From Paludibacter sp. (GTDB lineage: Bacteria > Bacteroidota > Bacteroidia > Bacteroidales > Paludibacteraceae), in the NCBI GenBank assembly GCA_030655595.1, contig JAUSNQ010000125.1, positions 1-14,382 of the forward strand: 14,382 nucleotides of DNA, in the 5' to 3' direction. A program made the translations under genes and the position numbers. Below the pieces are notes generated by a model that did no database searches, was not told where the DNA came from, and saw nothing but the letters and a program-made list of their open reading frames with translations. Positions 1 to 14,340 of the stretch are shown here, in pieces (positions within the stretch are counted from its first letter, which is position 1; the number at the start of each line of letters is the position of its first letter).

Positions 1-1880
1 AACAGTATTTTATAGGCAGAAAGAAAATAAGCATAGAGTAATGATTTTCGATTGCCATAAAAAGCAGTAAAATAGAACATCATATTATCGCAGCTGTAAT
101 AGGCAACAGCCTCTGTTTCGCGACTATACAAATATTTATAATTGAATGCATCGGTATAGGCATCCCAATGTTCTATTCGTTCTTTTCCTGATTCGTCTAA
201 ATATGAAAACTTTAGGGTAGTGTCGGGTAAAACATTAAAAGTGTTGAATAAGAAAGCATTTTGATTGAGATTTGAAACGATTTCATGCTCAAGAGGTTTT
301 GAAAATTGTTCTAATTTTTTTGATTTGATATTCTGATAATATGAAATAGGGTAGTCAATTGTTTTTGATCCAATAGCAGGATAACCCTGTATCTGAAAAT
401 GCAAATGGGGGTAAGGTGAACGACCAGAGTTTCCGCATAATGCCAGCACATCCCCAAGTTTTACATAATCTCCTTTTTTGACTCTCACAGAGTGTTTCTT
501 TAAGTGAGATAATTGTGTGAACACCCCCGGAATATGTTGAATAACAATGCTGTTTCCCCAATTGTGGGTGGTATTAACTTCCCCGATTTGATTATCTTCA
601 ATATTATCGATGATATCTATTACAACACCTTCGGCAGGAGCTGTAACCGGTTTACCAAAGCAATAGTAATTTTCGCAACTCAGTCCATTCGACATGTAAG
701 ATTTTCCATCTTCATCCAGAATCATAAAATCAAGGGCTTTTCCCCACTCGTCTTTGTGTGTAAATTCTCCGTCATGTCCTTGTGTAACCATCCATTCTCC
801 CCAAAAAGGCAACTGAATCGGAAAATATAGAAATCGACTTAACCTTTCCTTGTTGTTCAGGTAGGCATAAAGATTTGTCTCGGGAGAATAACTTTGAATC
901 GGTGTAAGAATCAGTTTCTTCTCACTGGCTCTTTGTCGCAGAAAATGAACGAACATGATGGTGATGAAAGAGTATGGCAAAGAAAAGACAGGAAGTTGAA
1001 TGTAACTGAATAGTTTAGTAAAAAACACCAACACGATGGATGTCAATGGAACCAACAGGATAATCCACATGTATGAGTATTTCGACGGAACGATGAAGAA
1101 TCCCCCAATGGCTATTGCAACCATCATGAAATTAGCTCCGATGTTGTAGTAGGTGATGCTGGCTGCTTCTGATCCCGAGAATTGAGCAAAAATATAGGCA
1201 GATATAAAACCCAGAATTGACAATGAAAAGAAAATGCGTGAACTAATCAGGAGAGCTATTGCCAGAATGATTCCCGTGATCAGATTGTTTTGAAAGATTA
1301 TTGAACTCAATGATCGCAGGTAAATATCCAATAGCTGATTAATCTCCCAGGATTCAATCTGTTGAAAAATATTGAGTAGTGAATTTCCACCTACTGCATA
1401 CATTTCGTTGATCCAAAATATACTCCGTTGGGTTAAACCGAGATTTTCATATAAAGATGCCGGCAACACGACAAACCAAAATGCCAGTACAAACGGAATG
1501 CTCAGAAAGGGAAGTCCATATTTAAAAAGAAACCCACCAAATGCAACCGACAGTATTAACGTCAGGAGGGAAGATAATGCCAGCAAAGAAAAAAACACAA
1601 TTCCCGGATCAAAAAAAGTTCCCAGTCCGATACCGGTAATCAGCGCATTGAAACTCAACACGCCGTTACGCAATTGTGCTTTGTCGAATCCCAGTGAATT
1701 GGCAATCAACACAGCAAGCAGCACAGCTAAAAATCCACTTAATCCAGCATAGAAATTCAAAAAAGTAGCCAGCATGAGGGCAATAGCCATAAAGCGGTTA
1801 TTCAGAAAGAATATGACTGAATAACTGTTTAATATGGCGGGTAATATTGTTTCCCGGATGTTTTTATATCTGTCGTTCAA
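1..1880 (-). CDS. Urea transporter (UT) family membrane domain fused to M23 metallopeptidase, 3' end outside window
   Basis: The frame stays open from about 1880 to the window edge (about 626 codons), so the C-terminus is missing. Residues about 10-310 are strongly hydrophobic and resemble the UT family (PF03253): an N-terminal stretch like NNRFMAIALML, a first half with NGVLSFNALITGIGLG, and a second half with YYNIGANFMMVAIAIGG, matching the family's internal duplication. Residues about 350-500 look like a peptidase M23 domain with its metal and catalytic motifs: His of THKDEW (about 373), Asp of ALDF (about 382), LSHLKKH, and PHLHFQ (about 490). About 130 further residues, unrecognised, follow. 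The first in-frame ATG (1790) would cut into the first membrane segment, so the TTG at 1880, 11 bases after the decarboxylase stop, is the likely start. The close spacing indicates co-translation with the decarboxylase. The UT part probably passes a small neutral solute. The M23 part follows the last membrane segment and may act on peptidoglycan or peptides. Substrates cannot be told from sequence. Confidence 0.85.
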   Translation of the reverse strand, partial: MNDRYKNIRETILPAILNSYSVIFFLNNRFMAIALMLATFLNFYAGLSGFLAVLLAVLIANSLGFDKAQLRNGVLSFNALITGIGLGTFFDPGIVFFSLLALSSLLTLILSVAFGGFLFKYGLPFLSIPFVLAFWFVVLPASLYENLGLTQRSIFWINEMYAVGGNSLLNIFQQIESWEINQLLDIYLRSLSSIIFQNNLITGIILAIALLISSRIFFSLSILGFISAYIFAQFSGSEAASITYYNIGANFMMVAIAIGGFFIVPSKYSYMWIILLVPLTSIVLVFFTKLFSYIQLPVFSLPYSFITIMFVHFLRQRASEKKLILTPIQSYSPETNLYAYLNNKERLSRFLYFPIQLPFWGEWMVTQGHDGEFTHKDEWGKALDFMILDEDGKSYMSNGLSCENYYCFGKPVTAPAEGVVIDIIDNIEDNQIGEVNTTHNWGNSIVIQHIPGVFTQLSHLKKHSVRVKKGDYVKLGDVLALCGNSGRSPYPHLHFQIQGYPAIGSKTIDYPISYYQNIKSKKLEQFSKPLEHEIVSNLNQNAFLFNTFNVLPDTTLKFSYLDESGKERIEHWDAYTDAFNYKYLYSRETEAVAYYSCDNMMFYFTAFYGNRKSLLYAYFLSAYKIL

Positions 1881-1891
1881 ATTTTCTGAAT

Positions 1892-3253
1892 TTATTTCAA
1901 ATGTGCAGGTACTTGTTCTATTGAATCAATATACTCCATGGTTTCCGCTTTCCGAATAATGTGGGTGTTGTTATCACCATCAATTAGAACAACATTAGGA
2001 CGAAGGGTGATGAATTGCATCCATTGTGTCATATTGTAGGCACCTACCTGATGTACAACCAGCTGATTACCTTTTTCCAATAAAGGCATCACAATGCTTT
2101 CTCTTACCACATCTATATTCATGCACAACGGACCGAAAAGCACCATTTCTTCTGTTTGACTTCCAAGCTCTTGAGCCGGACTCACTTTATGTTCGTACCA
2201 CAAAGAAGTAAACAGGGTATTGAGCCCGAAATCGAGGATCGTAGCTCGTCTTCCATCCGACAATCGTTTGGTCGCTAAAACAGTTCCAAGCAAATAACCC
2301 GCATCATCCACCAAAGCCCTGCCCGTTTCGAGTATCAGCAAAGGTAATTCTTCCTGCGTGAAACCATAACCCAATATTACATCAGTGATTGCATCAGCAA
2401 ACTGATCGAGCGATGGTACCGTGTCGGTGCCAGGTAAATAAGCACCTTTGAGTGTGTTTGTTGACGGGAAACCACCGCCTAAATCAATGTATTGCAGTGT
2501 TTTTCCATATCGCTCTTTCACACTCCACGTCAGTTCGCAAAGATTACGGGCAGCCGTCGCATAAGCAGTAGGAGATAGCATGAATGTTCCAATGTGGCAG
2601 TGCAATCCGACCAAATCAAGGTTGGATGAGTTGATGATACGTGTTATGGCATTCCATGCCTGACCATTTTCGAAATTGAATCCAAATCTATCCCACTTCG
2701 GATAAATACCTGTGTCCATGTTTATGCGTATGGCTACCCTTGGCTTTAGGTTAAAATCTTCACTAAGTCTAATCAATGCATAAAGCTCATCATAATGGTC
2801 GATGTGAATCAGTGAGTTGTTTTTGGCTGCTGCAACCAACTGTTCTTCTGATTTATCGGGACCGTTAAAGATAATTTTATTTCCCGGAACACCATTTTTC
2901 AATGCCTTGTCGTATTCAAAGCCCGATACAACCTCCGCCCAGGATCCTTCCTGATGATAGATCTGACAGACAGCATCTAAATAGTTGGTTTTGTACGACC
3001 AGGCAAATTGTACCTTTGGGTAGCGGGTTTTAAAAATTCTGGAAGCATCCTGGAAGTTTCTCCTGATTTGCTTTTCTGAAATAACAAACAAAGGAGAACC
3101 GTAATCTTTCAGCATGCCTTTTACTGATACACTCTCGATGTGTGTAACCGGTTCATTTTCTGTTTTAGTGCCGAATTTGTTCATCAACCCCGTGTTCATT
3201 TTTCGAAGTGTGGGTCGTTCGTATCTTTTCTTTTCCGTAATCATATTGCTCAC
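1892..3253 (-). CDS. PLP-dependent amino-acid decarboxylase, diaminopimelate/ornithine decarboxylase fold
   Basis: A 453-residue protein of the fold-type III PLP decarboxylases (LysA/ODC group; Orn_Arg_deC domains). Visible landmarks are the PLP lysine in SYKTN (K88), HCHIGT (H218-T223), the phosphate-binding glycines in DLGGGFP (259-261), ETGR (309-312) in place of EPGR, a Cys/Asp pair in GPLCMNID (C377, D381) where LysA has CESxD, and the late aromatic in GAYNM (Y406). All catalytic landmarks are present, so it is probably active. The altered CESGD-like motif, in a region that helps select substrate, means it need not be diaminopimelate decarboxylase and should not be called lysA. It is third in the PqqD/ATP-grasp operon, separated from the ATP-grasp gene by 79 bases of repeat sequence and from the UT-M23 gene by 11 bases. 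The expected reaction is CO2 release from an amino acid or an amino-acid-derived intermediate in the cytoplasm. Confidence 0.9.
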   Translation of the reverse strand: MSNMITEKKRYERPTLRKMNTGLMNKFGTKTENEPVTHIESVSVKGMLKDYGSPLFVISEKQIRRNFQDASRIFKTRYPKVQFAWSYKTNYLDAVCQIYHQEGSWAEVVSGFEYDKALKNGVPGNKIIFNGPDKSEEQLVAAAKNNSLIHIDHYDELYALIRLSEDFNLKPRVAIRINMDTGIYPKWDRFGFNFENGQAWNAITRIINSSNLDLVGLHCHIGTFMLSPTAYATAARNLCELTWSVKERYGKTLQYIDLGGGFPSTNTLKGAYLPGTDTVPSLDQFADAITDVILGYGFTQEELPLLILETGRALVDDAGYLLGTVLATKRLSDGRRATILDFGLNTLFTSLWYEHKVSPAQELGSQTEEMVLFGPLCMNIDVVRESIVMPLLEKGNQLVVHQVGAYNMTQWMQFITLRPNVVLIDGDNNTHIIRKAETMEYIDSIEQVPAHLK

Positions 3254-3280
3254 ATATTATTAAAACACTTTCATCTTATT

Positions 3281-3330
3281 TCTTATTTCTTAGCTTTTAG
3301 CTCTTCGCTTTTAACTCTTCGCTTTTCGCT
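3281..3330. repeat. Degenerate heptad repeat, TTTTAGC/TCTTAGC type
   Basis: The gap between the ATP-grasp stop and the decarboxylase start is filled by tandem seven-base units such as TCTTAGC, TTTTAGC, TCTTCGC and TTTTAAC (plus-strand reading). It begins two bases after the ATP-grasp stop codon. The same unit recurs near 10772-10872 and 14171-14214. Here the units have drifted (AGC to CGC or AAC), suggesting an older copy. Confidence 0.7.
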
Positions 3331-3332
3331 AA

Positions 3333-4376
3333 TTACAGTTCCCCATTACCTGAAATGGTTTGAAACTCCTTGATGTCGGTAATTAAATCCCAGGCATAGC
3401 GGATAAATATTTTACCGACTTCGTATTCGGTGAATGGATCAACTTTCTCTCCCATAGCCATTTTAACCAGACTTGCCGGTTGGTTTTGACCTGCCGCTGC
3501 GGTCAGGTATATCCAGGCAGGAAAACGCGGGTTAACCTCCATGATATATGGTTTGCCATCGTCGGTGAGCATCACTTCCAGTTCGCAACCACCCCGCCAG
3601 GTTGTTTTCTCAACAAATCTTCGTGCCAGTTCAATCAGTTTATCATCTTCCAATGTAATTCCTGCCCACGCTTTGCCTTTGTCGGTAATATACAATTTGC
3701 GCATCGGAATGATGCTAATTGCATTGCCTTCTCCATCACCCAGTGCCGCAATATTGATTTCTGTTCCTTTGATAAAATCCTGAATAATAATTGGTAATCC
3801 CCATTTGGCCTGTATTTTATAAAATGCCTTTTCAACCTGATCGAAATTTCTCGCTACAACAGCATCATAGAATTTTCCTTTTACCACAATGGGATATTCC
3901 AGTTCATCTTCCATCTTTTTCAATTCACGCAATTCGTAAATCACCTTGTCTTTGGGAACAAGAAATCCGTTTTGCTTACCAAACTCAAACAATTTTATTT
4001 TGTCGCGTGCTTCAAATTGCTTTAAATCCGGAAGGAAAGTTTGGATGCCCATCATTTTGAGTTTGTCTTTCAATTTGATAAAGCTAAAAAGTTCTGCATC
4101 AAAGTTTGGAATGATTAAATCTAATTTTTCTTCTTCGTGGATGTATTCAAGTCTCGCCATCAGACTATCTGTCCCTCCTGTTGGATAGGGAATCTGATAA
4201 GTTTTATCGACTAAATCGTGCATGTATAGTCCAGGTTCAAGTGCTTCATAGGATAATCCTATAATTCTAACCTGAAAATCTTTACATTCCCTGATTGCCC
4301 TGATAACTGCAACGCCTGGTCCCGGACTGTCGATTGCATTGAGAGCTGTGATTCCTATGACTAATTTTCTTTTCAT
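3333..4376 (-). CDS. ATP-grasp domain protein (CarB-like carboxylate-amine ligase)
   Basis: A 347-residue ATP-grasp enzyme. The family activates a carboxylate as acyl phosphate with ATP and joins it to an amine or thiol. Residues 1-110 form a Rossmann-like pre-ATP-grasp domain (KLVIGIT, SPGPGVAVIRAI, LDLIIPNFDAE). ATP-binding lysine appears in YPIVVKGKF (K166), and the metal/ATP site is GGCELEVM (262-269) followed by YIMEVNPRFPAW (277-288), with E280, N282 and R284 as the usual Mg-binding set. The set looks complete. Length and layout resemble stand-alone relatives of the carbamoyl-phosphate synthase large subunit rather than a housekeeping ligase. It starts 6 bases after the PqqD-like gene and precedes the decarboxylase, so a joint pathway is likely. 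The substrate cannot be read from the sequence. Confidence 0.88.
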   Translation of the reverse strand: MKRKLVIGITALNAIDSPGPGVAVIRAIRECKDFQVRIIGLSYEALEPGLYMHDLVDKTYQIPYPTGGTDSLMARLEYIHEEEKLDLIIPNFDAELFSFIKLKDKLKMMGIQTFLPDLKQFEARDKIKLFEFGKQNGFLVPKDKVIYELRELKKMEDELEYPIVVKGKFYDAVVARNFDQVEKAFYKIQAKWGLPIIIQDFIKGTEINIAALGDGEGNAISIIPMRKLYITDKGKAWAGITLEDDKLIELARRFVEKTTWRGGCELEVMLTDDGKPYIMEVNPRFPAWIYLTAAAGQNQPASLVKMAMGEKVDPFTEYEVGKIFIRYAWDLITDIKEFQTISGNGEL

Positions 4377-4382
4377 AATTGA

Positions 4383-4622
4383 TTAATCAAGAATGCTGTA
4401 ATTTTTTAATAACGTAGCAAACTCATCCAAATCGCGTTCGAAGAGAGTTTTGTCAACATCATATTGCTCACAAATGTTTTCGGCAATGTCTTGTAATGAT
4501 TTGTCTTGTTTCAGTAGTCCGATTATTTCAGAACCAATCCCGTTTGTAGAAAATGAATCTCCGGTGGCAGGATTGAATAGAAATCCTTCGTCGCTTACTG
4601 CAATGTTTTTACGTATTCTCAT
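4383..4622 (-). CDS. PqqD-family small protein (RiPP recognition element fold)
   Basis: A 79-residue protein with the PqqD pattern (PF05402): an N-terminal beta section (IAVSDEGFLFNPATGDSFS) followed by TNGIGSEIIGLL, then helices with LQDIAENICEQYDVD and an acidic FERDLDEFATLL segment. PqqD domains bind leader peptides and present them to modifying enzymes, and relatives lacking a known peptide also occur beside ATP-grasp and kinase genes. It is the first gene of the operon, just 25 bases from the -7 promoter element, and ends 6 bases before the ATP-grasp start. No precursor-peptide reading frame is visible in the 97 bases upstream, so any peptide partner must lie elsewhere. The family call rests on pattern only. 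Confidence 0.8.
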   Translation of the reverse strand: MRIRKNIAVSDEGFLFNPATGDSFSTNGIGSEIIGLLKQDKSLQDIAENICEQYDVDKTLFERDLDEFATLLKNYSILD

Positions 4623-4646
4623 GATGGTGTGTTTTTAATTACGATA

Positions 4647-4678
4647 CAAATGTAGGGTCACTAGATGTGCTCTCCAAA
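4647..4678 (-). promoter_or_regulatory. Bacteroidota-type promoter of the PqqD/ATP-grasp operon
   Basis: Read on the minus strand: TTTG at 4678-4675, a 20-base spacer, then TACATTTG at 4654-4647, a full match to the Bacteroidota -33/-7 consensus (TTTG, 19-21 bases, TAnnTTTG). The PqqD-like ATG is 25 bases downstream, giving a short leader. Confidence 0.75.
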
Positions 4679-4719
4679 TTTTTTCAGCATAAGGGGGGCG
4701 ACATTCAGCCAAACGCATT

Positions 4720-6792
4720 TCAGAATATCACTTTTTCAGTGAAATCATGAATTTTCACAATGAAAATTCCTTTTACCGGAAGATGAAGGCTCATCTCTTC
4801 CGAACTTGCTTTTGCTTTTGTGAGGGCTAAACCATGCAATGTGTAAACTTCCACCCAATCACCGGGGTTTAAATTTTTGATCATTAATCCATTACTTGTT
4901 TTGTAACATTGATATACTTCTTCTGATGTAATTTTATTTTGGGTGTTGAAGTCTATTTCGTTTTTGTTATTGAATTCTTCCCAGTAAGGTGCCTTGCTGT
5001 ACAATGCCAGAGAGCCAATGGGGATTGATAAGGTACAATTTGTTTTGTTGATTAACTCCAGCGCATAATAGTCAACCACCGGCGGAATTGACTTAGCAAC
5101 TCTCAAGTTTGTAAGATTAGAACAGGCATAAAAAGCCCCTGCTCCGATTATATTTACGTTTTGCGGTATGGTCAGGCTATTGATTCCAGTGCAGAATGCA
5201 AAAGCAGAAGCGCCAATTTCCTGTACCGATTCAGCGATGTTGATTGCTGTCATATTGCTACATCCATCGAAAGCAGAGAAACCAATATGTTGAACTGATG
5301 CCGGTATGGTATAACTACCTGATTTACTAAGCGGACATAAATAGAGATAATCCTGATTTTTACTGAATAGAACACTTTCATTTGCGCTAAAATAATTGTT
5401 TGCCTGATCAACCGTGAAACCGGAGATGCCGGAGCAATTATAAAAAGAATATTCCCCTATATAATTGATGGATGCGGGTAGATGGATATTGTCTGTAATG
5501 CCTGTGCAGTTATTGAATGCTCCCGGATCAATGCTGACTGTATTGGCGGGTAATGTGATATTTCCGGACTTAGATGTTGGACAGATGATTATTCTGTCTT
5601 TTGATTTTGAATACAAGATTTCGTTTTCTGCACTGAAATAGTTGTTCTGAGTGTTTACGGCATAACCGCTCAGTAAACTGCAACCATAAAATGCATAATA
5701 ACCGATGTAGTCGGTCAGTGCAGGTATGTTCATTGTGCCTGTTAGTTGGGAACATTTATAAAAAGCATGACTTCCTATCAATTTCACGGTATTGGGAATG
5801 GTGAAAGTATCTGCTTTAGCACCAGGGCAAATAAATAATGTATCCAGATTCTTGCTGTAAAGCACGTCATTCGAAGAAGCATAGTTGGGATTTGACGTAT
5901 TTACTGAAAACGATTTTAGATTATTACATTCCATAAAGCTATAACTTCCCAAATCAGTCAGACTAGCCGGGAGGTAAACTGTCCCGGTTAAATTATAACA
6001 ACCATAAAAAGCTCCTTCTCCGATTGATTTGACGTTGTTTGGGATGGTTAGATTTTCGGATATACCTGAACAATAAGCAAATGCATAGGTGCCGATTGAA
6101 GTTAGAGAAGTTGGGAGCGTTACGGAAGTCAGTTTGTAACAATTTTCAAAAGCTGAATTTGCAATGTGCTTAACTGTAGCTGGTACTGTATAATTACCCA
6201 TTTTTGCATTTGGGAAGACCAACAGCGAGTCCTGCGCTTTATTTAAAAGAACACCTGATGTGCTGCTAAATCTGGTATTCGATACATGTACGGTAAATGA
6301 TTCTAAAGCATAACATCCGTAAAAAGAATATTCAGCAATTGACTTTACAGATGCGGGAATGTCGATGGAGGTTAAATTCCAGCAATAATAAAATGCCAGA
6401 TAACCAATGGATACAGTATTTGCAGGAAGTGTTACGGCAGTCAGGCTAGGTTTGTATGACAACAAAGCAGGATTGTAAAACGCATAGGCTGGCATTTCAT
6501 TAATTGGATAAGTTGTCTTCACCCCGGGGTAAGTGCCATCTGTACCTGTATATGCTTTTATACTTGCATTGGAAAGAATCAGTGTTGTCAGGTTTTTAAT
6601 TTTATCACGCATAAACGCAACATCTCTCGCATCAATACTTCCTGAAACCGTCAAGGTTGTGAGGCTTGTTCGTTCAGATTCACTGATCATTCCTGACAGT
6701 GTTCCGGGAACAGTCACATTTACAGTTTTTGACTGGGCATGTAAGATTGAAGCACTAAAAAAACATAATGCAATAATCAATATTCTTCTCAT
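4720..6792 (-). CDS. BspA-like leucine-rich-repeat (LRR_5) secreted protein with C-terminal sorting-like domain
   Basis: A 690-residue protein with a signal peptide (RRILIIALCFFSASILHA, likely cleaved before Q20). Residues about 85-590 hold at least 13 LRR_5 units of the form IGxxAFxxCxxLTxxxxIPxSV. Among them are four copies of a larger insert of the form YFSxxxxVLxSKxxDxLxxCP followed by a turn and TIP. The array ends with the usual CTLSIPIGSLALY cap and a WEEF segment. The last 60 residues (GLMIKNL, WVEVYTLHG, GIFIVKIHDFTEKVIF) resemble type IX secretion C-terminal sorting domains, so export through the outer membrane and surface attachment are likely. BspA-type proteins bind host or matrix ligands in some species, but the ligand here is unknown. 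It lies 15 bases downstream of a LytTR regulator and probably shares its transcript. Confidence 0.9.
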   Translation of the reverse strand: MRRILIIALCFFSASILHAQSKTVNVTVPGTLSGMISESERTSLTTLTVSGSIDARDVAFMRDKIKNLTTLILSNASIKAYTGTDGTYPGVKTTYPINEMPAYAFYNPALLSYKPSLTAVTLPANTVSIGYLAFYYCWNLTSIDIPASVKSIAEYSFYGCYALESFTVHVSNTRFSSTSGVLLNKAQDSLLVFPNAKMGNYTVPATVKHIANSAFENCYKLTSVTLPTSLTSIGTYAFAYCSGISENLTIPNNVKSIGEGAFYGCYNLTGTVYLPASLTDLGSYSFMECNNLKSFSVNTSNPNYASSNDVLYSKNLDTLFICPGAKADTFTIPNTVKLIGSHAFYKCSQLTGTMNIPALTDYIGYYAFYGCSLLSGYAVNTQNNYFSAENEILYSKSKDRIIICPTSKSGNITLPANTVSIDPGAFNNCTGITDNIHLPASINYIGEYSFYNCSGISGFTVDQANNYFSANESVLFSKNQDYLYLCPLSKSGSYTIPASVQHIGFSAFDGCSNMTAINIAESVQEIGASAFAFCTGINSLTIPQNVNIIGAGAFYACSNLTNLRVAKSIPPVVDYYALELINKTNCTLSIPIGSLALYSKAPYWEEFNNKNEIDFNTQNKITSEEVYQCYKTSNGLMIKNLNPGDWVEVYTLHGLALTKAKASSEEMSLHLPVKGIFIVKIHDFTEKVIF

Positions 6793-6807
6793 TTTTTATG
6801 AACTTAT

Positions 6808-7680
6808 TTATTTTATGAAGTTTTTTCCGAGATATTGCTGAAAGCTTTCTTTATATTGTTCTCCGATTGGAATGTGTTTTTTGTGCTCAATAAAAATTCT
6901 GTTCTTTTCGACCGACTGAATTTTCTCCAGATTGACGATGAAAGAACGCTGTACACGCATGAATTTGTCGGATGGCAGTTTAGATTCAATATTTTTCAAC
7001 CGCATGAAAGTAGTAATTACTTCTCCTTTTTCAAGGAAAATTTTGATGTATTCGTTGGCACTTTCAATATACATGATTTCCGACATCAAAATTTTGACCA
7101 TTTTAAAATCTGCCTTTACATAAATGTAATCATCTATCTTCAGATTGTTGTTTTGCATACTTTGTTGGAGTATCTTTTTTTGTTTTTCCTCGTCAATCCA
7201 GAAGAATATTACTTTGTAGGCGGTTCCCGTTCCTATGACAAGTAAAGCAATTACAAAACGTTGGAAGAATTGCAGTTCAACCGAAGGTGCAATTGATTTT
7301 TGAGATTTAAATCCTTGAGGAGCAGGCATTTTTTTGGATAACTCCATGGGAGGCATTCCTTTGGAATGATTTAGGGTTAACCTGTTTTCCGACCACATGC
7401 TCAGGCATACGATAAGCGGAACGACAACAATGATTGTGAGGATGTATCTTTCGTATTGTTTTTTATGAAGTAAAAATGGGATAAAAAGGTAAATATTAAT
7501 GATAAATACCAAAAGAAAAGAGGCGATATTGAACCAATCAACTTTTAACTCATCCCATAAAAGATTTCCATTGAGTTGGTTTGTGGTGATAGGTATCAAA
7601 AAAACACCCACCCAAATAATGATGAAAATGACAGTTTCAATTAATTTGTAACTGATAAGCTTTTTTGTCGTGATTTGCAT
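6808..7680 (-). CDS. Membrane-bound LytTR-family transcriptional regulator
   Basis: A 290-residue protein: four hydrophobic segments in the first two-thirds (KLIETVIFIIIWVGVFL, a second around FLLVFIINIYLF, RYILTIIVVVPLIVCL, and FVIALLVIGTGTAYKVIFF), a short charged linker (EEKQKKILQQSMQ), then a C-terminal LytTR DNA-binding domain (ILMSEIMYIESANEYIKI, FMRVQRSFIVNLEKIQ, HIPIGEQYKE). There is no receiver domain and no kinase domain. The membrane part looks like that of YehU-type histidine kinases joined straight to a LytTR domain, so sensing and DNA binding are in one protein. A longer frame exists with TTG at 7704, but that codon lies inside the -7 promoter element, so the ATG at 7680 is preferred. 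The BspA-like gene follows after 15 bases and is the obvious candidate target. Confidence 0.88.
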   Translation of the reverse strand: MQITTKKLISYKLIETVIFIIIWVGVFLIPITTNQLNGNLLWDELKVDWFNIASFLLVFIINIYLFIPFLLHKKQYERYILTIIVVVPLIVCLSMWSENRLTLNHSKGMPPMELSKKMPAPQGFKSQKSIAPSVELQFFQRFVIALLVIGTGTAYKVIFFWIDEEKQKKILQQSMQNNNLKIDDYIYVKADFKMVKILMSEIMYIESANEYIKIFLEKGEVITTFMRLKNIESKLPSDKFMRVQRSFIVNLEKIQSVEKNRIFIEHKKHIPIGEQYKESFQQYLGKNFIK

Positions 7681-7701
7681 GGTAGATTCAAATAGTTTAC
7701 G

Positions 7702-7732
7702 CAAATATAAACCTATTCACTATGAACAACAA
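7702..7732 (-). promoter_or_regulatory. Bacteroidota-type promoter of the LytTR/BspA-like pair
   Basis: Minus-strand TTG at 7732-7730, 20 bases, TATATTTG at 7709-7702, matching the TAnnTTTG element. The preferred ATG is at 7680, 21 bases downstream. The element overlaps a possible upstream TTG start, which argues against that start. Confidence 0.65.
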
Positions 7733-7759
7733 GAAAAATCAGTACAAATGAGTTTTTTT

Positions 7760-8518
7760 TCAGTAAAACCCCTTTGAATTTAAAACATCTTTGGCTGTTT
7801 GATACCCCAATTCAAATATCTCCAAAACCTTATCGGTTTCAAAAAAGTCAAAGTCATAGATGTTTTGCGGTTCAATGATGATATCGCAGATTTCTTTATC
7901 AGGAAGCGTGTTGGCTTTAAACATGAAGTGATAGGTCCGGAAAGCTACATCCATGATACTGACCTTGTATTTCTGTGCGACTAAAGGCCCGGCGTTTACA
8001 CCAATTACCAAATCACAATCTTCGCGAATGGTCGAAACGGGAAAGTTTTTCAGCAATCCACCGTCAACATAATAATTGTTTTTGATTTTTTGCGGGACAA
8101 ACAGCACAGGGATGCTACAAGAAGCCATAATCGGTTTTAATAAATGTCCTTCGGAGAAAGTAGTCGGAACACCTAAATCAAAATTTGTTGCAACAATTCG
8201 CAGTGGAATGTCGAGATCTTCAAATGTTTTTGCTTTCAGTTTTTTGCCTAAGAATTTCTCAAAAGCTACGATATTAAAAAAGCCACCATCAGGCACATCC
8301 AGTCGGGTCATGCTTTTAAAACTGATGTCTTCAAATATTTGTGCGATTTCGAGCGGTTTGTACCCATCAGCATATAAAGCTCCAACAATAGCTCCTGCAC
8401 TCACACCTGATATGATTTCCGGCCTGATATTCAATTCTTCCATAGCCATCAAAGCCCCGGCATGTGAAATTCCCCGGATGCCACCGCCACTTAAAGCCAG
8501 TCCGATTCTGTATTTCAT
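7760..8518 (-). CDS. Patatin-like phospholipase
   Basis: A 252-residue single-domain patatin (PF01734), a Ser-Asp dyad lipid acyl hydrolase of the RssA/YchK size class. Visible parts are the oxyanion loop GGGIRG (11-16), the nucleophile elbow GVSAG with S40, the ASCSIP segment (132-137), and the catalytic aspartate in VDGG (D152). There is no signal peptide or membrane segment, so it should be cytoplasmic, acting on phospholipid or lysophospholipid. The start is the only sensible one, since the GLALSGGG strand begins at once. It lies 51 bases behind the second LytTR regulator with no clear promoter between them, so an operon is likely. Confidence 0.93.
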   Translation of the reverse strand: MKYRIGLALSGGGIRGISHAGALMAMEELNIRPEIISGVSAGAIVGALYADGYKPLEIAQIFEDISFKSMTRLDVPDGGFFNIVAFEKFLGKKLKAKTFEDLDIPLRIVATNFDLGVPTTFSEGHLLKPIMASCSIPVLFVPQKIKNNYYVDGGLLKNFPVSTIREDCDLVIGVNAGPLVAQKYKVSIMDVAFRTYHFMFKANTLPDKEICDIIIEPQNIYDFDFFETDKVLEIFELGYQTAKDVLNSKGFY

Positions 8519-8569
8519 GTTTGTTGTTGTACCAGTTGAAAGATTTAATATCAGTAAAAAAGTTAGTTA

Positions 8570-9427
8570 TCAAATTGAATACTGCGAAAATTTTTCCATC
8601 ACCCTGTCGTAATAGGTTTTGGAAACAGGAATATCGGGAGCATTCGGTGCATCTAATTCCATAAAAATACCAGCTTTGGTCTTTCTTAATACTTTGACTT
8701 TGTCAAGATTCACGATGTAAGAACGATGACAACGGACCAGAGGAGTCTCTTTACTTAAGTTTTCCTCCATCCATTTCAAAGAATTTCTAATCAGAAATTT
8801 TGCTATTTTTTCTTTGTTGATGTAATGAATGGTGGCATAATTATCTGCAGAATCAATATAAATGAGATTTTCGAGCATGATAGAGATTTTCAGTTCACCT
8901 TTTTCGTCGGGGAAACCGATTAGGCCTTTTTTCGGGTTCTCTGAAACAGTAGTTGTAATAATTCTTTCCTTCAATAAGCGGTTGTTTTCTTTCCAGGAGA
9001 AATATAAAAAGGAGATGGAATAGGGTAGGAGTAATACAAGACCCGTGTTGATGACAGATTTTTGAAATAGAATCATGAAATCTTTTGCTGTGCCTCCTTC
9101 AGGAAGAAATTTCGAAAATATGGCATAGAAAATCGACATCGCAAGAATCTCTGCAAAAACCCATACCGTGTATTGGAGGTAATATATTTGATGTTTACGG
9201 GTATAAAGTCCCATAATCAACCTGCTGATTACAACAACCAGCATGCCTGTTAAAATAATCAGACTGGAAAAGAAGAAGTAATTGAATTCAGAAACGTTCG
9301 GGTACCAGTTTCTTGATCCAAAAGGTTGAAAAATATTAATAAAAAGCAGGGCAAAAAGTGCCGTAAACAATATCATGCGAATGGTATTGTCTTTTTCGAG
9401 CAGATAATAAGGAATTTTTTTGTCCAC
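8570..9427 (-). CDS. Membrane-bound LytTR-family transcriptional regulator
   Basis: A 285-residue protein with four predicted membrane segments (around residues 17-35 with MILFTALFALLFINIF, 50-70, 85-105 and 125-148), a linker with RLLKERIITTTV, and a C-terminal LytTR DNA-binding domain (LENLIYIDSADNYATIHYI, LVRCHRSYIVNLDKVKVL, DIPVSKTYYDRV). Like the regulator at 6808-7680 it lacks receiver and kinase domains, but the membrane parts are only distantly alike, so this is not a recent duplication. The start is GTG at 9427. No in-frame ATG lies upstream, and the next ATG would remove residues before the first membrane segment. A consensus promoter sits 27 bases upstream and TTAATCCC repeats sit just behind it, suggesting autoregulation. 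The patatin gene follows. Confidence 0.88.
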   Translation of the reverse strand: MDKKIPYYLLEKDNTIRMILFTALFALLFINIFQPFGSRNWYPNVSEFNYFFFSSLIILTGMLVVVISRLIMGLYTRKHQIYYLQYTVWVFAEILAMSIFYAIFSKFLPEGGTAKDFMILFQKSVINTGLVLLLPYSISFLYFSWKENNRLLKERIITTTVSENPKKGLIGFPDEKGELKISIMLENLIYIDSADNYATIHYINKEKIAKFLIRNSLKWMEENLSKETPLVRCHRSYIVNLDKVKVLRKTKAGIFMELDAPNAPDIPVSKTYYDRVMEKFSQYSI

Positions 9428-9453
9428 GATATGTTTTTATTTTTTGAACTACG

Positions 9454-9484
9454 CAAAGGTATATTATTCTGTTCATTAATGCAA
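9454..9484 (-). promoter_or_regulatory. Bacteroidota-type promoter of the LytTR/patatin operon
   Basis: Minus-strand TTG at 9484-9482, 20 bases, TACCTTTG at 9461-9454, a full match to TAnnTTTG. The GTG start of the regulator is 27 bases downstream. Confidence 0.72.
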
Positions 9485-9488
9485 TAAC

Positions 9489-9565
9489 TTAATCCCACGG
9501 AGGTCGTTTTTAATCCCTGTATGTAAATCTTTGTCCCGCATAATCATGTTTAATCCCTCGGGATT
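9489..9565. promoter_or_regulatory. TTAATCCC direct repeats with a palindrome, possible LytTR operator
   Basis: Three exact copies of TTAATCCC lie at 9489-9496, 9510-9517 and 9550-9557 on the plus strand. The first two start 21 bases apart, two helical turns. The third is half of a palindrome, AATCCC-TC-GGGATT (9552-9565). LytTR proteins are known to bind direct repeats with centres about 21-22 bases apart, and the first pair lies immediately behind the -33 element of the LytTR gene, an activator-type position. The function is inferred. The rest of the divergent gap to 9630 holds no recognisable gene. Confidence 0.5.
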
Positions 9566-9630
9566 GTTTCCTTTCACAAAAAATAGGTGGGTTTATGATG
9601 ATATACTTTATTTGTAAAAAAATAAATATT

Positions 9631-10758
9631 ATGATCTATTCAAATCGTTTTCAAGAACTTGCTGCTCAATTTAGGATAGGTAATGATGTGAATCTGGCGT
9701 ATTCTGATATTGCAATCCGTTTCTTTCCGTTTCGGAGTAATCCTACGACAGGTTTTACTGATAGTCAGTTGAATGATACGATTGTCGGTGATTTTGTTTG
9801 CGAAAATGAGCATTTTGATTATCCTGTTTTCATTCATTCCAGGACAAAGCAATACAAGGAGGTGATACTGCTTTTGCATGGTTTGAATGAGCGGAGTTGG
9901 CATAAATATCTTCCATGGGCCGAATACCTTTGTCAGAAAACCGGCAAGGCGATCTTGCTATTCCCGATAGCTTATCACGTGAATCGCTCACCTGTTTCAT
10001 GGACCAATCCCCGATTTCTTCAAAAAATAATTGAATTGCGAAGAAAGCTAAACGGTCATGACCGGTCGCTGAGCCTTGCCAATGTAGCTTTGAGTGAGAG
10101 ACTAAGCGATAATCCCTATCGATTTTACAATTCGGGTCGTCAAAGTTATTTTGATATTGTACGGTTAATTACTGAAATCAAGCAAGGAAAACATCCTTTG
10201 TTCGCAAAAGAAACCAAAGTGGATGTTTTTGCATATTCAATCGGAGCTTTTTTATCTCAAGTATTGTTTTTGGCAAACCCAAATGGATATTTCTCGGAAT
10301 CAAAACTTTTTATGTTTTGCGGAGGAGGCGTATTTAGTTCTATGTACGGACAATCGCGCAGCATTATGGATAAAACCAGTTTTGAGAAACTGTTGGAATA
10401 TTATCAAGCGGGATTTTGGAAAGAAAAAATGGCTATGAATACCGGGGATGATGTGCTCAAAGCATTTTACAGCATGATTGCTTTCGACAATGCAAAAGAT
10501 ACGAGGATCGATACTTTTCGGCAAATGAAGCAACGAATCGGAGGCGTTTCACTCGCATTGGATAAGGTTATGCCATATCCCGGAGTCGTTGCAGCACTGG
10601 GACATGATTGTGCATCCAGGAATATTACTTTAATTGATTTGCCTTACGATTATACGCATGAAGCTCCATTTCCTGTGCATGCGAGTCATGATCTACATGA
10701 AATAAATCAGGCATTTAAAGTGGTGTTCGAACAGGCTGCTGGTTTTCTGGGGAACTAA
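9631..10758 (+). CDS. Alpha/beta-hydrolase-like protein, DUF6051-like
   Basis: A 375-residue protein, apparently cytoplasmic. It shows alpha/beta-hydrolase features: a strand followed by an oxyanion-type HGLNERSW (residues 83-90), a nucleophile elbow FAYSIGAF with Ser203 (AxSxG rather than GxSxG), a GGGVF segment, and a late histidine in DYTHEAPFP. I believe it matches the Bacteroidota family DUF6051, but this is from memory and unverified. The substrate is unknown. The frame extends up to an ATG at 9595, but the extra 12 residues are encoded by A/T-rich leader-like sequence, so the ATG at 9631 preceded by TAAATATT is preferred. A weak TTTATTTG (9607-9614) could be a -7 element. It is the only plus-strand gene here, divergent from the LytTR operon and convergent with hisS. 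Confidence 0.8.
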   Translation: MIYSNRFQELAAQFRIGNDVNLAYSDIAIRFFPFRSNPTTGFTDSQLNDTIVGDFVCENEHFDYPVFIHSRTKQYKEVILLLHGLNERSWHKYLPWAEYLCQKTGKAILLFPIAYHVNRSPVSWTNPRFLQKIIELRRKLNGHDRSLSLANVALSERLSDNPYRFYNSGRQSYFDIVRLITEIKQGKHPLFAKETKVDVFAYSIGAFLSQVLFLANPNGYFSESKLFMFCGGGVFSSMYGQSRSIMDKTSFEKLLEYYQAGFWKEKMAMNTGDDVLKAFYSMIAFDNAKDTRIDTFRQMKQRIGGVSLALDKVMPYPGVVAALGHDCASRNITLIDLPYDYTHEAPFPVHASHDLHEINQAFKVVFEQAAGFLGN

Positions 10759-10770
10759 GGATATTGATAT

Positions 10771-10872
10771 TAGAGCTAAAAGCTAAGAACTAAGAGCTAG
10801 AAATAATTAAATACATTCACTTTCAGTTTTTAGCTCCTAACTTTTAGCTCTTAGCTTTTAGCTCTTAGCTCT
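10771..10872. terminator. Heptad-repeat inverted hairpin between convergent genes, likely bidirectional terminator
   Basis: The left arm (10771-10800) carries AGCTAAA/AGCTAAG units and the right arm (about 10826-10872) carries the complementary TTTTAGC/TCTTAGC units, with a 25-base loop between. An imperfect stem of about 25-30 pairs can form, in more than one register. It sits between the plus-strand hydrolase gene and minus-strand hisS, and T-rich and A-rich stretches flank the loop. The right arm runs into hisS, supplying its last codons and stop. The termination role is inferred from position. Confidence 0.6.
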
Positions 10873-12221
10873 TTACAAACTTCTTCCTGTGTAAGCAAAT
10901 GCTGTGCTCCGGTTTTCATATTTTTCAACATCACCTTGCCTTCATTCATCTCAGTTTCTCCCACAATAGCCGCAAAAGGTATATTTTTATTATCTGCATA
11001 GCTCATCTGCTTTTTCATTTTGGCAGGTTCGGGATAAATTTCTGCATTGATGCCTTTGCTGCGTAAAGTTTTTAGCCAAGGCAGACAATACATCAATTCT
11101 TTTTCGCCAAAACTTACGAACAGAATTTGAGTTTGTTCTTCGGAAGTCTCAGGATATAAATTTAATTGGTTCAGCACATCGTAAATACGGTCGGCACCAA
11201 ACGAAATGCCTACACCCGATACGCCGGGCATACCAAATACACCGGTCAGGTTGTCGTACCGCCCGCCCCCCGTGATACTGCCTATTTCAACATCCAAAGC
11301 TTTCACTTCAAAAATAGCCCCTGTGTAATAATTCAGTCCACGTGCCAGGGTTAAATCCAGTTCAATTTTAGTTACTATTTGCATCGTCTCATATAAACCA
11401 AAAATGGTTTCAAGTTCAGAGACCCCTTTTAGTCCTGTTTCAGAAGACACCAGTACAGATTTCAGTTGATTCAGTTTCTCAGCATTGGTGCCGCTGAGTT
11501 GTAAGATCGGTTGCAATTTATCAATTGCTGACTGCGATATACCTTTTGAGGCAATTTCTTCGTTAACTTTTTCCAGTCCGATTTTGTCCATTTTGTCGAT
11601 GGCGACCGTGATGTCCGTAATTTTTTCCGCTTCGCCAATGATTTCAGCAATACCTGAAAGAATTTTGCGGTTGTTGATTTTGATGCAGACATTGATTTTC
11701 AGGCGGCGATATACTTCATCTACAATCTGAATCAGTTCCAGCTCGTTCAGTAAAGAATCACTTCCCACCACATCCACATCACATTGATAAAATTCGCGGT
11801 ATCGTCCTTTTTGAGGTCTGTCGGCCCTCCATACAGGCTGGATTTGATATCTTTTAAACGGGAACGAAATTTTATCGCGGTTTTGTACTACGAACCGTGC
11901 AAAAGGTACAGTCAGGTCGTAACGCAAGCCTTTTTCCGAGATTTTACTGGTAAGACGGATGCTGTTTCTTCCCTGTAATTCCGGATCAGTAGTCCCCGAT
12001 AAATAATCCCCGGAGTTCAGGATTTTAAACAGCAATTTATCACCCTCTTCTCCGTATTTTCCCATGAGCGTAGAAAGATTCTCCATGGCAGGTGTTTCAA
12101 TTTGCTGAAAACCATATAGCTGAAAAACTGACTTGATAGTATTGAATATGTAATTGCGGTTTGCCATTTCCTGTGGCGTAAAATCGCGGGTTCCTTTGGG
12201 GATGGAGGGTTTCTGAGACAT
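10851..12221 (-). CDS. hisS: Histidine--tRNA ligase
   Basis: A 456-residue class II histidyl-tRNA synthetase, which charges tRNA-His with histidine using ATP. Landmarks in order: GTRDFTP (10-16), class II motif 2 around [20 protein letters not shown] (122-141) and [11 protein letters not shown], the histidine-binding ARGLNYYTG (293-301), [10 protein letters not shown] (318-327), motif 3 [11 protein letters not shown] (336-346), then a C-terminal anticodon-binding domain with [10 protein letters not shown] and [10 protein letters not shown]. Length and motifs are normal for the longer Bacteroidota form. The last residues (ELRAKS) and the stop are encoded by the AGCTAAA-type heptad repeat. The broken kinase-like gene ends 13 bases upstream and no clear promoter lies in that gap, so transcription may enter from upstream. 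Confidence 0.97.
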
Positions 12222-12234
12222 GATAATTCTTAAA

Positions 12235-12712
12235 TTATTTTACATAAAATACGGTATCTATAAAATAGAGCATACCATCATTAGTTAAAACGTTTTCATC
12301 ATGTAAATCTTCAATTAGTATTCCTGATACAGAATTATAATAATCATATTTACGAATAGATATAAATCCGTTTGATTCCATAAACTGACGAACATGGTTC
12401 AGATCAGTTTTTTGATTTGCTTTTATAAATTGCATCATTTAATTTCAGCACAGATTTCCCATCTTTCAGATATACCTTTTGTTCAGCGCCTTCAGAGACA
12501 TATTGCTCCAAATTAATATCAAGAATCCAAAGATTGTTGATTTCTACAAATCGTCTTAATCTCTCTGTTTCTTCTTTTTTGAAGTGCTTATTTGATTTAT
12601 CCAGCGTGCCTGATTTCTCGCTTCCTCTAAGGTAACTGAGGATTGTCTTGATACCAGTTCCAAACTTAATTTGGCTCTCTCCTGAAATGATGCATTGTAT
12701 CTCATTGTTCAT
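12235..12712 (-). pseudogene. Broken polyvalent-protein-kinase-like gene with internal out-of-frame deletion
   Basis: Two overlapping minus-strand frames belong to one former protein. The 5' part (12712-12404, 102 codons) includes NLEQYVSEGAEQKVYLKDGK and SVLKLNDAIY, then runs out after KSKSKN. The 3' part (to 12235) carries FIKANQKTDLNHVRQFMESN and LIEDLHDENVLTNDGMLYFIDTVF in another frame. LEDLHDENVL...FIDTVF resembles the catalytic-loop-like HxxN and DT pair of the small kinase-like proteins found with mobile and plasmid genes in Bacteroidota. As I recall intact relatives, several dozen residues separate DAIY from FIKANQKTDL. Here they abut near 12415-12432 with a frame change, so a deletion is the simplest reading. 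An ATG (12438) could start the 3' part, but a lone fragment lacking the ATP-binding lobe is unlikely to work. A translational coupling or a sequencing error are alternatives. Confidence 0.65.
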
Positions 12713-12749
12713 TCATTTAGAAATCTGATGAATAAAATTATTTTCACTG

Positions 12750-12757
12750 CAAATTTA
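12750..12757 (-). promoter_or_regulatory. Possible -7 element upstream of the broken kinase-like gene and hisS
   Basis: Minus-strand TAAATTTG matches TAnnTTTG, 38 bases before the ATG at 12712. No good TTG is found 19-21 bases further upstream, so only half of the promoter signature is present. If used, it could also drive hisS. Confidence 0.35.
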
Positions 12758-12773
12758 CAAAAAATATTGCGTA

Positions 12774-14054
12774 TTATTTAATATTGGGGTTATTCGGGTT
12801 TATTAACTTGATGATAAGTGCTGTTGCTCCAGTATTTTTCTTTACATATGCTCCTGCAATGCCTGCTGCTTTTGTGTTGTCGGCTAACAGTCTGTCAAAC
12901 AGGGCTTCCAGTTCTTCATAGTTGCCGACAGAGAAACCTCCCTCTTCAGCAATTAATTCTCGAGCTTCCCTGAATCTTTGGTAGTTTGGCCCGAAAACAA
13001 CAGGAACACCCCATACGGCAGCTTCAAGCGTGTTGTGAATACCGACTCCGAAACCTCCTCCGACATATGCCACATGCCCATATCTGTAAATGGAAGATAA
13101 TAAACCAATGGTGTCGACAATCAAACATCTTTCGGAGGTGAGATCTTTATTTGCTGCCTGGGTGTATCGCAACTGATTTTCTCCCGTCAATTTTAAAATA
13201 CCAGCCATGTGGGCTTCGTGGATTTCATGAGGCACGAGTATCAGTTTGAGGTCTGTATGATTTTTCATGTAGCGCACCAGGAATTCCTCGTCTTTGGGCC
13301 AGGTGCTTCCTGCAACAATCACTTTGGAACAGCCTTTTACAAAATTTTCAACAATCGGGATATTTTTTGCTTGTTTTGCCAGATCGCTTACCCTGTCGAA
13401 TCGCGTATCGCCGGCAATTGTAACATTGTCAATCCCATGATGCTGAAGCAAGTGCATGGATTCGGTGTCCTGAACAAAAATTTGATGGAATGATTTTAGT
13501 AAACCCTTATACCATCCGCCATACCATTTGAAAAATACCTGTTCAGGTCGAAATATGGCTGAAATTGAATAAACCGGAATATTTTCTTTTCTCAAAGCCA
13601 TCAGAAAATTTGGCCAGAATTCATATTTGATAAAGACGGCTTTTACAATTTGAACGCTATTTAGAAAACGTTTTGCGTTTTTACGGGTATCCAGTGGCAA
13701 GTAGCAAATTACATCTGCGCCGGAATAATTTTTTCGAATTTCGTATCCTGAAGGAGAAAAGAATGTCAGTAAGATATTTGTATCCGGATTTTCTTTTTTG
13801 AGTTGTTCAATGACTGGCCGGCCTTGCTCGAATTCGCCTAAAGAAGCTGCATGAAACCACACATATTTTTTATCAGGCTGAACTTTTTCTTGGAGTGTTT
13901 TGATGGCTATACCTTGTCCTTGTTTCAATTTTCGTGCTTTGTCATTCAACAAACTCGCACAAAAAATCATCAAGCCATATATGCTGATTCCAACCTGATA
14001 GATGTACTGACTCAGGAGGTGTTTGATTGGTTGTTTTTTAAGTTTTGTGTCCAT
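12774..14054 (-). CDS. waaA: 3-deoxy-D-manno-octulosonic acid (Kdo) transferase
   Basis: A 426-residue GT-B enzyme that adds Kdo from CMP-Kdo to the lipid A precursor at the inner membrane. There is an N-terminal membrane anchor (about residues 18-36, YIYQVGISIYGLMIFCASLL). The Glycos_transf_N domain has WFHAASLGEFEQGRP (66-80) with the conserved base E74, then IKYEFWPNFL, and the C-terminal lobe has VAGSTWPKDE, LVPHEIHE and GGGFGVGIHNTLEAA (about 307-321) followed by GVPVVFGPNY. All family landmarks are present, so a working lipid A pathway is expected. The frame is open to an ATG at 14084, but the ten extra residues (MPFVVVFEYF) come from the inverted repeat; the ATG at 14054 directly precedes the conserved part. 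No consensus promoter was found in the repeat-filled gap upstream. Confidence 0.95.
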   Translation of the reverse strand: MDTKLKKQPIKHLLSQYIYQVGISIYGLMIFCASLLNDKARKLKQGQGIAIKTLQEKVQPDKKYVWFHAASLGEFEQGRPVIEQLKKENPDTNILLTFFSPSGYEIRKNYSGADVICYLPLDTRKNAKRFLNSVQIVKAVFIKYEFWPNFLMALRKENIPVYSISAIFRPEQVFFKWYGGWYKGLLKSFHQIFVQDTESMHLLQHHGIDNVTIAGDTRFDRVSDLAKQAKNIPIVENFVKGCSKVIVAGSTWPKDEEFLVRYMKNHTDLKLILVPHEIHEAHMAGILKLTGENQLRYTQAANKDLTSERCLIVDTIGLLSSIYRYGHVAYVGGGFGVGIHNTLEAAVWGVPVVFGPNYQRFREARELIAEEGGFSVGNYEELEALFDRLLADNTKAAGIAGAYVKKNTGATALIIKLINPNNPNIK

Positions 14055-14069
14055 AAAATATTCGAATAC

Positions 14070-14255
14070 AACCACAAAAGGCACAAAAGGAAGACTAAGG
14101 AGTCACAAAAGATAAATATTTAAACCACTTTGGTCACATAAGAACACCCAAGTGAATACATTTTTTCACTTTTTAGCTCTTAGCTCTTAGTTTTTAGCTG
14201 TTAGCTGTTAGCTCTTTTGTGTTCCCTTAGTCTTCCTTTTGTGCCTTTTGTGGTT
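14070..14255. repeat. Large inverted repeat, 43-base arms, 100-base loop
   Basis: The left arm 14070-14112 and right arm 14213-14255 are reverse complements at 40 of 43 positions, with 31 consecutive matches at the outer end (AACCACAAAAGGCACAAAAG onward) and 9 at the inner end around three mismatches. The arms are built of CACAAAAGG-like units. The loop contains the heptad array at 14171-14214. The element occupies most of the gap between rpsO and waaA and would be a long hairpin in any waaA transcript that starts upstream of it. No transposase gene is present. Confidence 0.85.
14171..14214. repeat. Heptad repeat array, TTTTAGC/TCTTAGC/TGTTAGC type
   Basis: Six tandem seven-base units (TTTTAGC, TCTTAGC, TCTTAG plus T-run, TTTTAGC, TGTTAGC, TGTTAGC, TCTT) inside the loop of the inverted repeat. 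Same unit as at 3281-3330 and 10771-10872. Confidence 0.75.
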
Positions 14256-14286
14256 AATATATTTATCTATATAATTAGATTTTAAC

Positions 14287-14323: not shown

Positions 14324-14340
14324 ATGAGATTGGAACGAAA

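Follow-up and report, generated by a model that had tools for sequence, protein, structure and literature searches.

Background

RiPP recognition elements (RREs) serve in hunts for peptide natural products, and the discrete RREs of lasso-peptide systems are described in PMC13381572 as binding the motif [Y/W]xxPx[L/V/I/F/A]. In the account of LppB given there, D70 bonds the motif tyrosine, N33 fixes the kink at the proline, and F74 packs on the proline and lines a second pocket. Here we describe an operon in a stretch of 14,382 nucleotides from Paludibacter sp. (NCBI GenBank assembly GCA_030655595.1, contig JAUSNQ010000125.1, positions 1 to 14,382; this whole stretch is called the window), which encodes a PqqD-like protein of the lasso RRE class, an ATP-grasp ligase, a fold-III pyridoxal phosphate decarboxylase (DC) and a fusion of a urea transporter family (UT) domain with an M23 peptidase domain (UT-M23). 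As judged by sequence, what is new in it is that a metabolic enzyme, the decarboxylase, has a leader-like tail that matches the RRE.

The systems that come closest each share a part of this set. Discrete lasso-peptide RREs (TbiB1, TfuB1 and PbaB1) and LppB resemble the window PqqD in sequence family and in most cleft residues, and their systems have the YxxPx[L/V/I] recognition motif in common with the operon. Unlike these systems, the operon carries the motif on a metabolic enzyme of 450 amino acids (aa), and no conserved precursor, leader protease or macrocyclase was found among its recurrent neighbours. For the decarboxylase the best solved relative is FigC/FslC (with SbnH and AcsE), which shares the GPxCM loop and a threonine replacing the diaminopimelate arginine; in the operon, however, the partner is an ATP-grasp enzyme instead of an NIS siderophore synthetase, and the decarboxylase bears the leader-like tail. 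BtrI/BtrJ/BtrK of butirosin biosynthesis likewise combine an ATP-grasp ligase (BtrJ) with a fold-III decarboxylase that works on a carrier-bound amino acid, whereas in the operon no acyl-carrier protein is seen and an RRE stands in its place.

PMC7857480 groups FigC, SbnH, AcsE, MccE and BtrK with the diaminopimelate decarboxylases, considers other clade members likelier to act in specialised metabolism, and gives a glutamylated carrier protein as the substrate that BtrK decarboxylates. Graspetide systems that depend on a partner protein (MirB/MirC, described in PMC13097080) also pair an ATP-grasp enzyme with a partner containing a domain of weak resemblance to an RRE; these macrocyclise a peptide, whereas the operon ligase is of the PRK12767 type and no precursor was found for it. 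Our searches of the open-licence literature gave no account of the present gene set.

Layout and conservation of the operon

The operon consists of four adjoining genes, all on the minus strand, in the order PqqD, ATP-grasp, DC and UT-M23. Its features are the following.

4647..4678, minus strand: promoter-like site TTTG-N20-TAnnTTTG, a single exact match in the window, just upstream of PqqD
4383..4622, minus strand: PqqD-like protein, 79 aa (Pfam PF05402, 3e-12), discrete lasso-type RRE by family, with YxxP-cleft residues N27, Y54, D64 and F68
3333..4376, minus strand: ATP-grasp ligase, 347 aa, PRK12767/ATP-grasp_3 type (Pfam ATP-grasp_3/ATPgrasp_Ter, NCBIfam)
1892..3244, minus strand: DC, fold-III decarboxylase, 450 aa (Pfam Orn/DAP/Arg decarboxylase domains), putatively of the conjugate-decarboxylase type
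3206..3223, minus strand: leader-like RRE recognition motif YERPTL, DC residues 8-13
3176..3178, minus strand: invariant DC tail lysine K23, 12 residues past the motif proline
3..1880, minus strand: UT-M23 fusion, 626 of about 730 aa inside the window (PF03253, 1.9e-45; PF01551, 1.4e-15)

The four open reading frames (ORFs) lie as given in a preliminary description of this DNA, with gaps of 6, 79 and 11 bases when DC is counted from a GTG at 3253 (ORF 1892-3253). Because the relatives begin there, the ATG at 3244 is more likely to be the true start, and the gap between ATP-grasp and DC would then measure 88 bases. The UT-M23 gene extends past the window end. Pfam agrees with the family names of all four proteins, and each of their listed NCBIfam matches scores under its curated cut-off. 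As to the one clear promoter that had been proposed, an exact match to the pattern presumed for Bacteroidota (-33 TTTG, 20 bases, -7 TAnnTTTG) does stand just upstream of PqqD, but 0.52 matches are expected in the window by chance, so only its position carries weight.

A scan of genome contigs confirmed 440 ATP-grasp relatives; the best 80 were kept and, together with the window, make up 81 loci. By their record titles, the 80 span Paludibacter, further Bacteroidales, Chitinophagaceae and Sphingobacteriales; one of them (L056) belongs to a cultured bacterium, Flavihumibacter stibioxidans YS-17. Among loci whose flanks are long enough to tell, PqqD lies within 2 kb upstream of ATP-grasp in 78/78, DC within 3 kb downstream in 80/80, and UT-M23 within 3 kb downstream in 65/68 (the misses are L012, L018 and L031). 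A chance arrangement, for which homologs had been expected to be rarely neighbours, is thus opposite to what is observed. The four genes first described as the operon are indeed conserved as a unit, but in relatives it does not end with them: UT-M23 is followed by two more genes that fall outside the window, one for a TPR-containing, likely beta-barrel protein (51/51 loci) and then one for a TPR protein (49/49).

Because the 80 loci had been picked by ATP-grasp, the neighbourhood was retested starting from DC. The enzyme was found in 23 of 247 drawn Bacteroidota genomes, and PqqD, ATP-grasp and UT-M23 adjoin it at all 24 DC loci. One genome (G129) contributes two of these (L111 and L113), equal-scoring copies at both ends of one 3.74-Mb contig, and the second copy probably reflects duplication at the contig ends, not another operon. 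Searches of the same 247 genomes with PqqD and ATP-grasp returned the identical 23 genomes for close matches, and two further genomes gave weak PqqD-like matches only (2.4e-9 and 6.6e-9). Two of the 23 (G003 and G155) look identical to genomes already in the 80-locus set (L056 and L064). The gene set is a conserved unit, co-inherited in a minority of Bacteroidota and far from a chance arrangement; in related loci its genes are sometimes separated by inserted genes.

The PqqD-like protein is a lasso-type RRE

The preliminary description had placed PqqD among leader-binding proteins, and its nearest solved relatives bear this out: a search of solved structures gave TbiB1 (1.4e-9) and TfuB1 (0.0014) as best matches, and the family profile against the PDB gave TbiB1 (3.2e-12), TfuB1 (3e-8), 9x90 (1.5e-4) and true PqqD (0.0076). 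Judged by fold and sequence family (PF05402 above cut-off, and the profile matches to TbiB1 and TfuB1), PqqD is an RRE.

The structure 9x90 is a lasso-peptide PqqD-family chaperone, which we read as the PbaB1 of PMC13381572 because G42, Q79 and F83 then fall in register. In the alignment, N27, D64 and F68 of the window PqqD correspond to G42, Q79 and F83 of 9x90 and, following the LppB residues named in that source, to N33, D70 and F74 of LppB; for the remaining contacts the mapping relies on that constant offset, not on alignment. The YxxP-binding residues N27, Y54, D64 and F68 are conserved in PqqD. An alignment of 101 sequences (one truncated row excluded) has N27 in 100 of them, D64 in 98 and, at position 68, mostly Phe (91) or Tyr (8). 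A wider set, of 122 sequences, shows Asn (117), Ser (3) or a gap (2) at position 27, and Phe (108), Tyr (8), Leu (5) or Trp (1) at position 68. For the 13 mapped cleft positions the mean entropy is 0.86, against 1.55 overall (permutation p 0.0015 against random sets).

The decarboxylase carries a leader-like tail

An N-terminal tail of about 35 residues precedes the enzyme fold of DC. Its motif reads YERP in 80 of 103 loci, YESP in 15, YEKP in 4, FERP in 3 and YTKP in 1, and when divergent loci are added the form [YF]xxPx[ILV] is present in 130 of 131 distinct DCs, the exception (L146) being cut by a contig end. In these 130 the first residue is Tyr (117) or Phe (13) and the sixth Ile (109), Leu (15) or Val (6). 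A lysine always follows 12 residues after the motif proline (130/130 distinct tails). We also observed that this lysine and a K[FYM]G element match the RRE motif in degree of conservation.

The motif is specific to this enzyme in the comparisons made: it is missing from 5/5 fold-III paralogs taken from five of these genomes, and [YW]xxPx[LIVFA] was not found in the first 40 residues of the other operon proteins, namely PqqD (0/102), ATP-grasp (0/103), UT-M23 (0/89), the barrel-like protein (0/55), the TPR protein (0/52) and a GNAT acetyltransferase encoded at some loci (0/23).

Probable pairing of RRE and tail

Where the genes are separated, PqqD and the tail still occur together. In two genomes (G466 and G523) DC is unlinked to ATP-grasp and PqqD, the tail is kept, and one PqqD is encoded elsewhere in each (6.0e-31 and 6.5e-30). 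In four divergent genomes (G620, G621, G623 and G625) PqqD falls outside the fetched DC flank and the tail is again kept; each encodes a single PqqD (3.4e-12 to 6.1e-15), which in G620 is on a different contig and in the other three is near ATP-grasp. As a separate observation, three tandem ORFs of 64 codons that by eye resemble cold-shock proteins stand beside an unlinked DC (L127, 3243-4262).

Covariation was followed in 141 loci, 9 of them without PqqD in the fetched stretch; from the remaining 132, 10 repeats were dropped. In the resulting 122 distinct loci position 64 of PqqD is Asp wherever the tail has Tyr (110), and Tyr (11) or His (1) wherever it has Phe, with no exception. The pattern is consistent with the bond between Tyr and Asp in the crystal structure.

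A structure model of DC alone leaves the tail without confident shape: block means of the predicted local distance difference test (pLDDT) are 29-36 for residues 1-30, and residues 1-32 stay under 50. The C-terminal domain of this model is poor, so only its tail was used. One DC alignment (including two paralogs) did not enter the structure prediction. We then have a model of PqqD, ATP-grasp and DC joined as one chain (three in-frame genes of L003), in which residues 438-447 (KRYERPTLRK) no longer belong to a segment under pLDDT 50 and residues 446-448 turn into a predicted strand that begins directly after the motif Leu. In the PbaA complex as described in PMC13381572, the strand is formed by the three residues directly after the motif Leu. 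PqqD itself appears in the joined model as two three-residue strands and three helices, the usual third strand not being clear. A fold search with this model has decarboxylase and carboxylase (ATP-grasp type) chains among the matches listed and is uninformative on PqqD. The joined-chain model is cited as support, not proof, of the pairing. We consider it very probable that the PqqD RRE binds the DC tail.

Chemistry of the decarboxylase and the ligase

Intact catalytic motifs had been reported for the window proteins, and they hold in the relatives aligned for DC and for UT-M23. In 95 aligned DCs the motifs SYKTN, HxHIGT, GGG, ExGR, GPxCMxID and VGAY are intact, a few positions showing rare substitutions, and the Lys, His, Gly-rich loop, Arg and Cys are invariant. 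Among solved structures, N-citrylornithine decarboxylase (7kh2) is the best relative at 211 bits; diaminopimelate decarboxylase scores 148 and BtrK about 80. In DC as in 7kh2 the loop reads GPxCM, and a Thr takes the place of the Arg found in 1twi, a diaminopimelate enzyme. Against the NCBIfam model for FslC/FigC N-citrylornithine decarboxylase, DC scores 236.3 bits, under the cut-off of 500, and its kinship to FigC, SbnH, AcsE, MccE and BtrK is one of best-match ranking and a common loop, not of a tree.

The best NCBIfam match of the ligase is of the PRK12767 type. A role as graspetide synthetase was considered and rejected, as the enzyme is not RimK-like (rimK family, 26.5 bits) and a precursor was not found in the loci scanned. 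The nearest solved DC relative acts on a conjugated amino acid, which favours the earlier suggestion of an amide ligase working beside a decarboxylase on a conjugate. Given this relative, the shared GPxCM loop and Thr, and the clade of conjugate decarboxylases, the most economical reading is that ATP-grasp makes a conjugate and DC decarboxylates it.

The envelope genes

Both domains of UT-M23 pass their Pfam cut-offs, placing them with the urea transporter family and the M23 peptidases. H375, D384, H459, H492 and H494 (L002 numbering), which we take to be the metal site, are invariant in 30/30 aligned UT-M23 proteins of full or near-full length, so the M23 site is intact. The fusion differs from known UT and M23 proteins in that the two domains are joined, are tied to an operon with RRE, ligase and decarboxylase, and score 105.7 against the NCBIfam Yut equivalog, under its cut-off of 274.6. 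The gene appears to be split in two loci, L027 and L060. The operon gives this urea-channel/M23 fusion a possible setting.

The link to the envelope that had been proposed from UT-M23 is strengthened by the two downstream genes, whose barrel-like and TPR products start with signal-like stretches (as seen by eye). The barrel assignment was made by reading of the sequence, Pfam giving weak TPR matches only. The operon partners argue for a periplasmic M23 domain, whereas a charge feature given below points to the cytoplasm.

Proposed pathway

Taken together, we propose a ligase-decarboxylase pathway scaffolded by an RRE and equipped with an envelope module. PqqD, as lasso-type RRE, would grip the [YF]xxPx[ILV] tail of DC in place of a free precursor peptide, which would put DC beside the ATP-grasp ligase. 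The ligase would form a putative amide conjugate of an amino acid, and DC would strip the amino-acid carboxylate off that conjugate, in the way FigC and BtrK treat their own conjugates. UT-M23, the barrel-like and the TPR proteins might then act at the envelope to move or use the presumed product, with export as the assumed direction of transport. We put the odds of this reading as a whole at about even.

Several observations weigh against it. The invariant tail lysine is not accounted for by scaffolding alone. Part of the mapped cleft positions belong to the hydrophobic core and would be conserved regardless, and the DC tail is kept even where PqqD has Ser at position 27 (3/122) or Leu at position 68 (5/122). 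On the DC tree (114 rows, 8 loci being left out as too short) the Tyr/Asp64 covariation is a single event, the tail having changed once and position 64 twice, and so is not independent statistical proof. The joined-chain model is weak (predicted template modelling score 0.47, mean pLDDT 55 for block 441-450, strand residue 448 under 50), and the strand that would pair with the tail could not be seen in it. Finally, a run of basic residues behind the last UT helix (hydropathy and charge) hints at a cytoplasmic M23 domain, which is ill-suited to an exported enzyme.

If the proposal holds, it suggests that a peptide-tagging trick has been reused to organise a small-molecule pathway at the envelope, and the operon is a testable case of leader-RRE recognition being used to assemble such a pathway. 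It points to an unknown metabolite in 23 of the 247 sampled Bacteroidota genomes. It also offers an explanation for one group of unpaired lasso RREs, whose leader would be hidden on an enzyme; according to PMC7470986, the lasso protease and cyclase accompany only about 4,000 of the almost 8,000 proteins that a discrete lasso RRE model finds, which leaves the others as possible false positives.

Alternative readings

In the alternative with most weight, the DC tail is RiPP-like leader and core in one: PqqD would show the tail to ATP-grasp, an amino acid would be loaded on the tail lysine, and DC would decarboxylate it there. The enzyme would thus have its own substrate arm, with the carrier logic of BtrI/BtrJ/BtrK in one protein. 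ATP-grasp ligases can form isopeptide bonds, and the constant spacing of the lysine in every distinct tail agrees with such a role. At 12 residues past the motif proline, the lysine lies close to the leader end of the precursors PbaA (P-12) and LppA (P-13) as reported in PMC13381572, and PMC7857480 describes a glutamylated carrier protein as the substrate of the relative BtrK (80 bits). A docking site for the ligase would, however, be an equally good reading of the K[FYM]G element, and a release step is not evident unless M23 provides it. We regard this fusion of precursor and enzyme as unlikely, though to be taken seriously, and its full version (a core of one lysine, decarboxylation on the tail and release to an apparatus of UT-M23, TPR and barrel proteins spanning the envelope) as a little harder still to credit. 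If true, it would put an RRE in the service of small-molecule metabolism rather than peptide maturation.

Discrete RREs are known to bind free precursors (PMC12710340), and the ligand of PqqD might accordingly be a free leader from another place in the genome, in which case the tail of DC would have another role, such as oligomerisation. A separate PqqD-bound carrier had indeed been envisaged in the preliminary description. We scanned the 81 loci for ORFs of 20-130 aa bearing the motif and obtained 362, spread over 73 loci. As precursors, 20 conserved clusters among the short ORFs were rejected: all overlap longer genes (ATP-grasp, DC, UT-M23, TPR and neighbours) in antisense or another frame. 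The 28 intergenic candidates were rejected as well, none being conserved and none falling in a cluster. A conserved separate precursor ORF was thus not found near the operon in this size range; precursors that are unlinked, longer than 130 aa or unconserved would escape the scan. Neither a lasso leader protease nor a cyclase was found among the recurrent neighbours scanned with Pfam (single-locus neighbours were not scanned). Since a leader-like motif stands on DC itself, agrees with what such RREs recognise and accompanies PqqD also where the genes are apart, the separate carrier loses ground and a free leader appears improbable.

Recycling of peptidoglycan amino acids, the alternative put forward earlier, would make DC a diaminopimelate or lysine decarboxylase, with M23 giving the substrate and UT moving small products. 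DC is homologous to diaminopimelate decarboxylases and the M23 site is intact, but in 95/95 DCs the diaminopimelate-type Glu after the catalytic Cys is replaced by Met and the distal-carboxylate Arg by Thr. Because these residues, which presumably recognise diaminopimelate, are replaced, the alternative is weakened; moreover, DC scores 215.5 bits against NCBIfam lysA, under the cut-off of 297.9 and thus outside LysA, and PqqD is left unexplained. We consider recycling distinctly improbable.

That PqqD is a helix-turn-helix regulator merely located in the operon is highly improbable, for although the two folds are akin and RRE finders report such false positives (PMC7470986), its nearest solved relatives are leader-binding RREs and its mapped leader-cleft positions are conserved above random sets.

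Neighbouring genes

In the window Rfam gave no match at the gathering score and no tRNA was found. An anti-phage system was considered and rejected, PADLOC giving no match at E 0.001 for the four operon proteins.

Directly before PqqD lies a gene for a BspA-type LRR protein (4720-6792, minus strand), whose cluster occurs in 17/81 loci, window counted. Further upstream, two LytTR-domain genes (6808-7704 and 8570-9427, minus strand) stand on either side of a patatin gene. LytTR genes are close to the operon in 38/81 loci (window counted), and their products may therefore regulate it. A full-length DUF6051 protein (2.1e-119), the function of which is not known, is encoded at 9595-10758 on the plus strand. 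Two overlapping ORFs at 12235-12712 (minus strand) match successive parts (profile 1-56 and 95-159) of one Kinase-PolyVal domain, which suggests a split or frameshifted gene.

Other loci have additions of their own. A GNAT acetyltransferase gene precedes PqqD in 22/75 loci, every one within L051-L080, and is itself preceded in eight loci (L051-L053, L057 and L058 among them) by a gene for a MatE-family transporter, possibly another exporter of the product. Between PqqD and ATP-grasp, six loci (L018, L029-L032 and L034) have a gene for a protein of 266-267 aa with a Por_Secre_tail sorting domain, and a divergent clade (L154, L155 and L157) has one for a large repeat-rich protein. A DUF2202 protein gene repeatedly adjoins the operon (cluster in 10 loci; for example L008, L012, L014, L032 and L034), and several Paludibacter-titled loci (L002, L003, L004 and L013) have, behind the TPR gene, one for a class I/II aminotransferase, whose cluster occurs in 6 loci.

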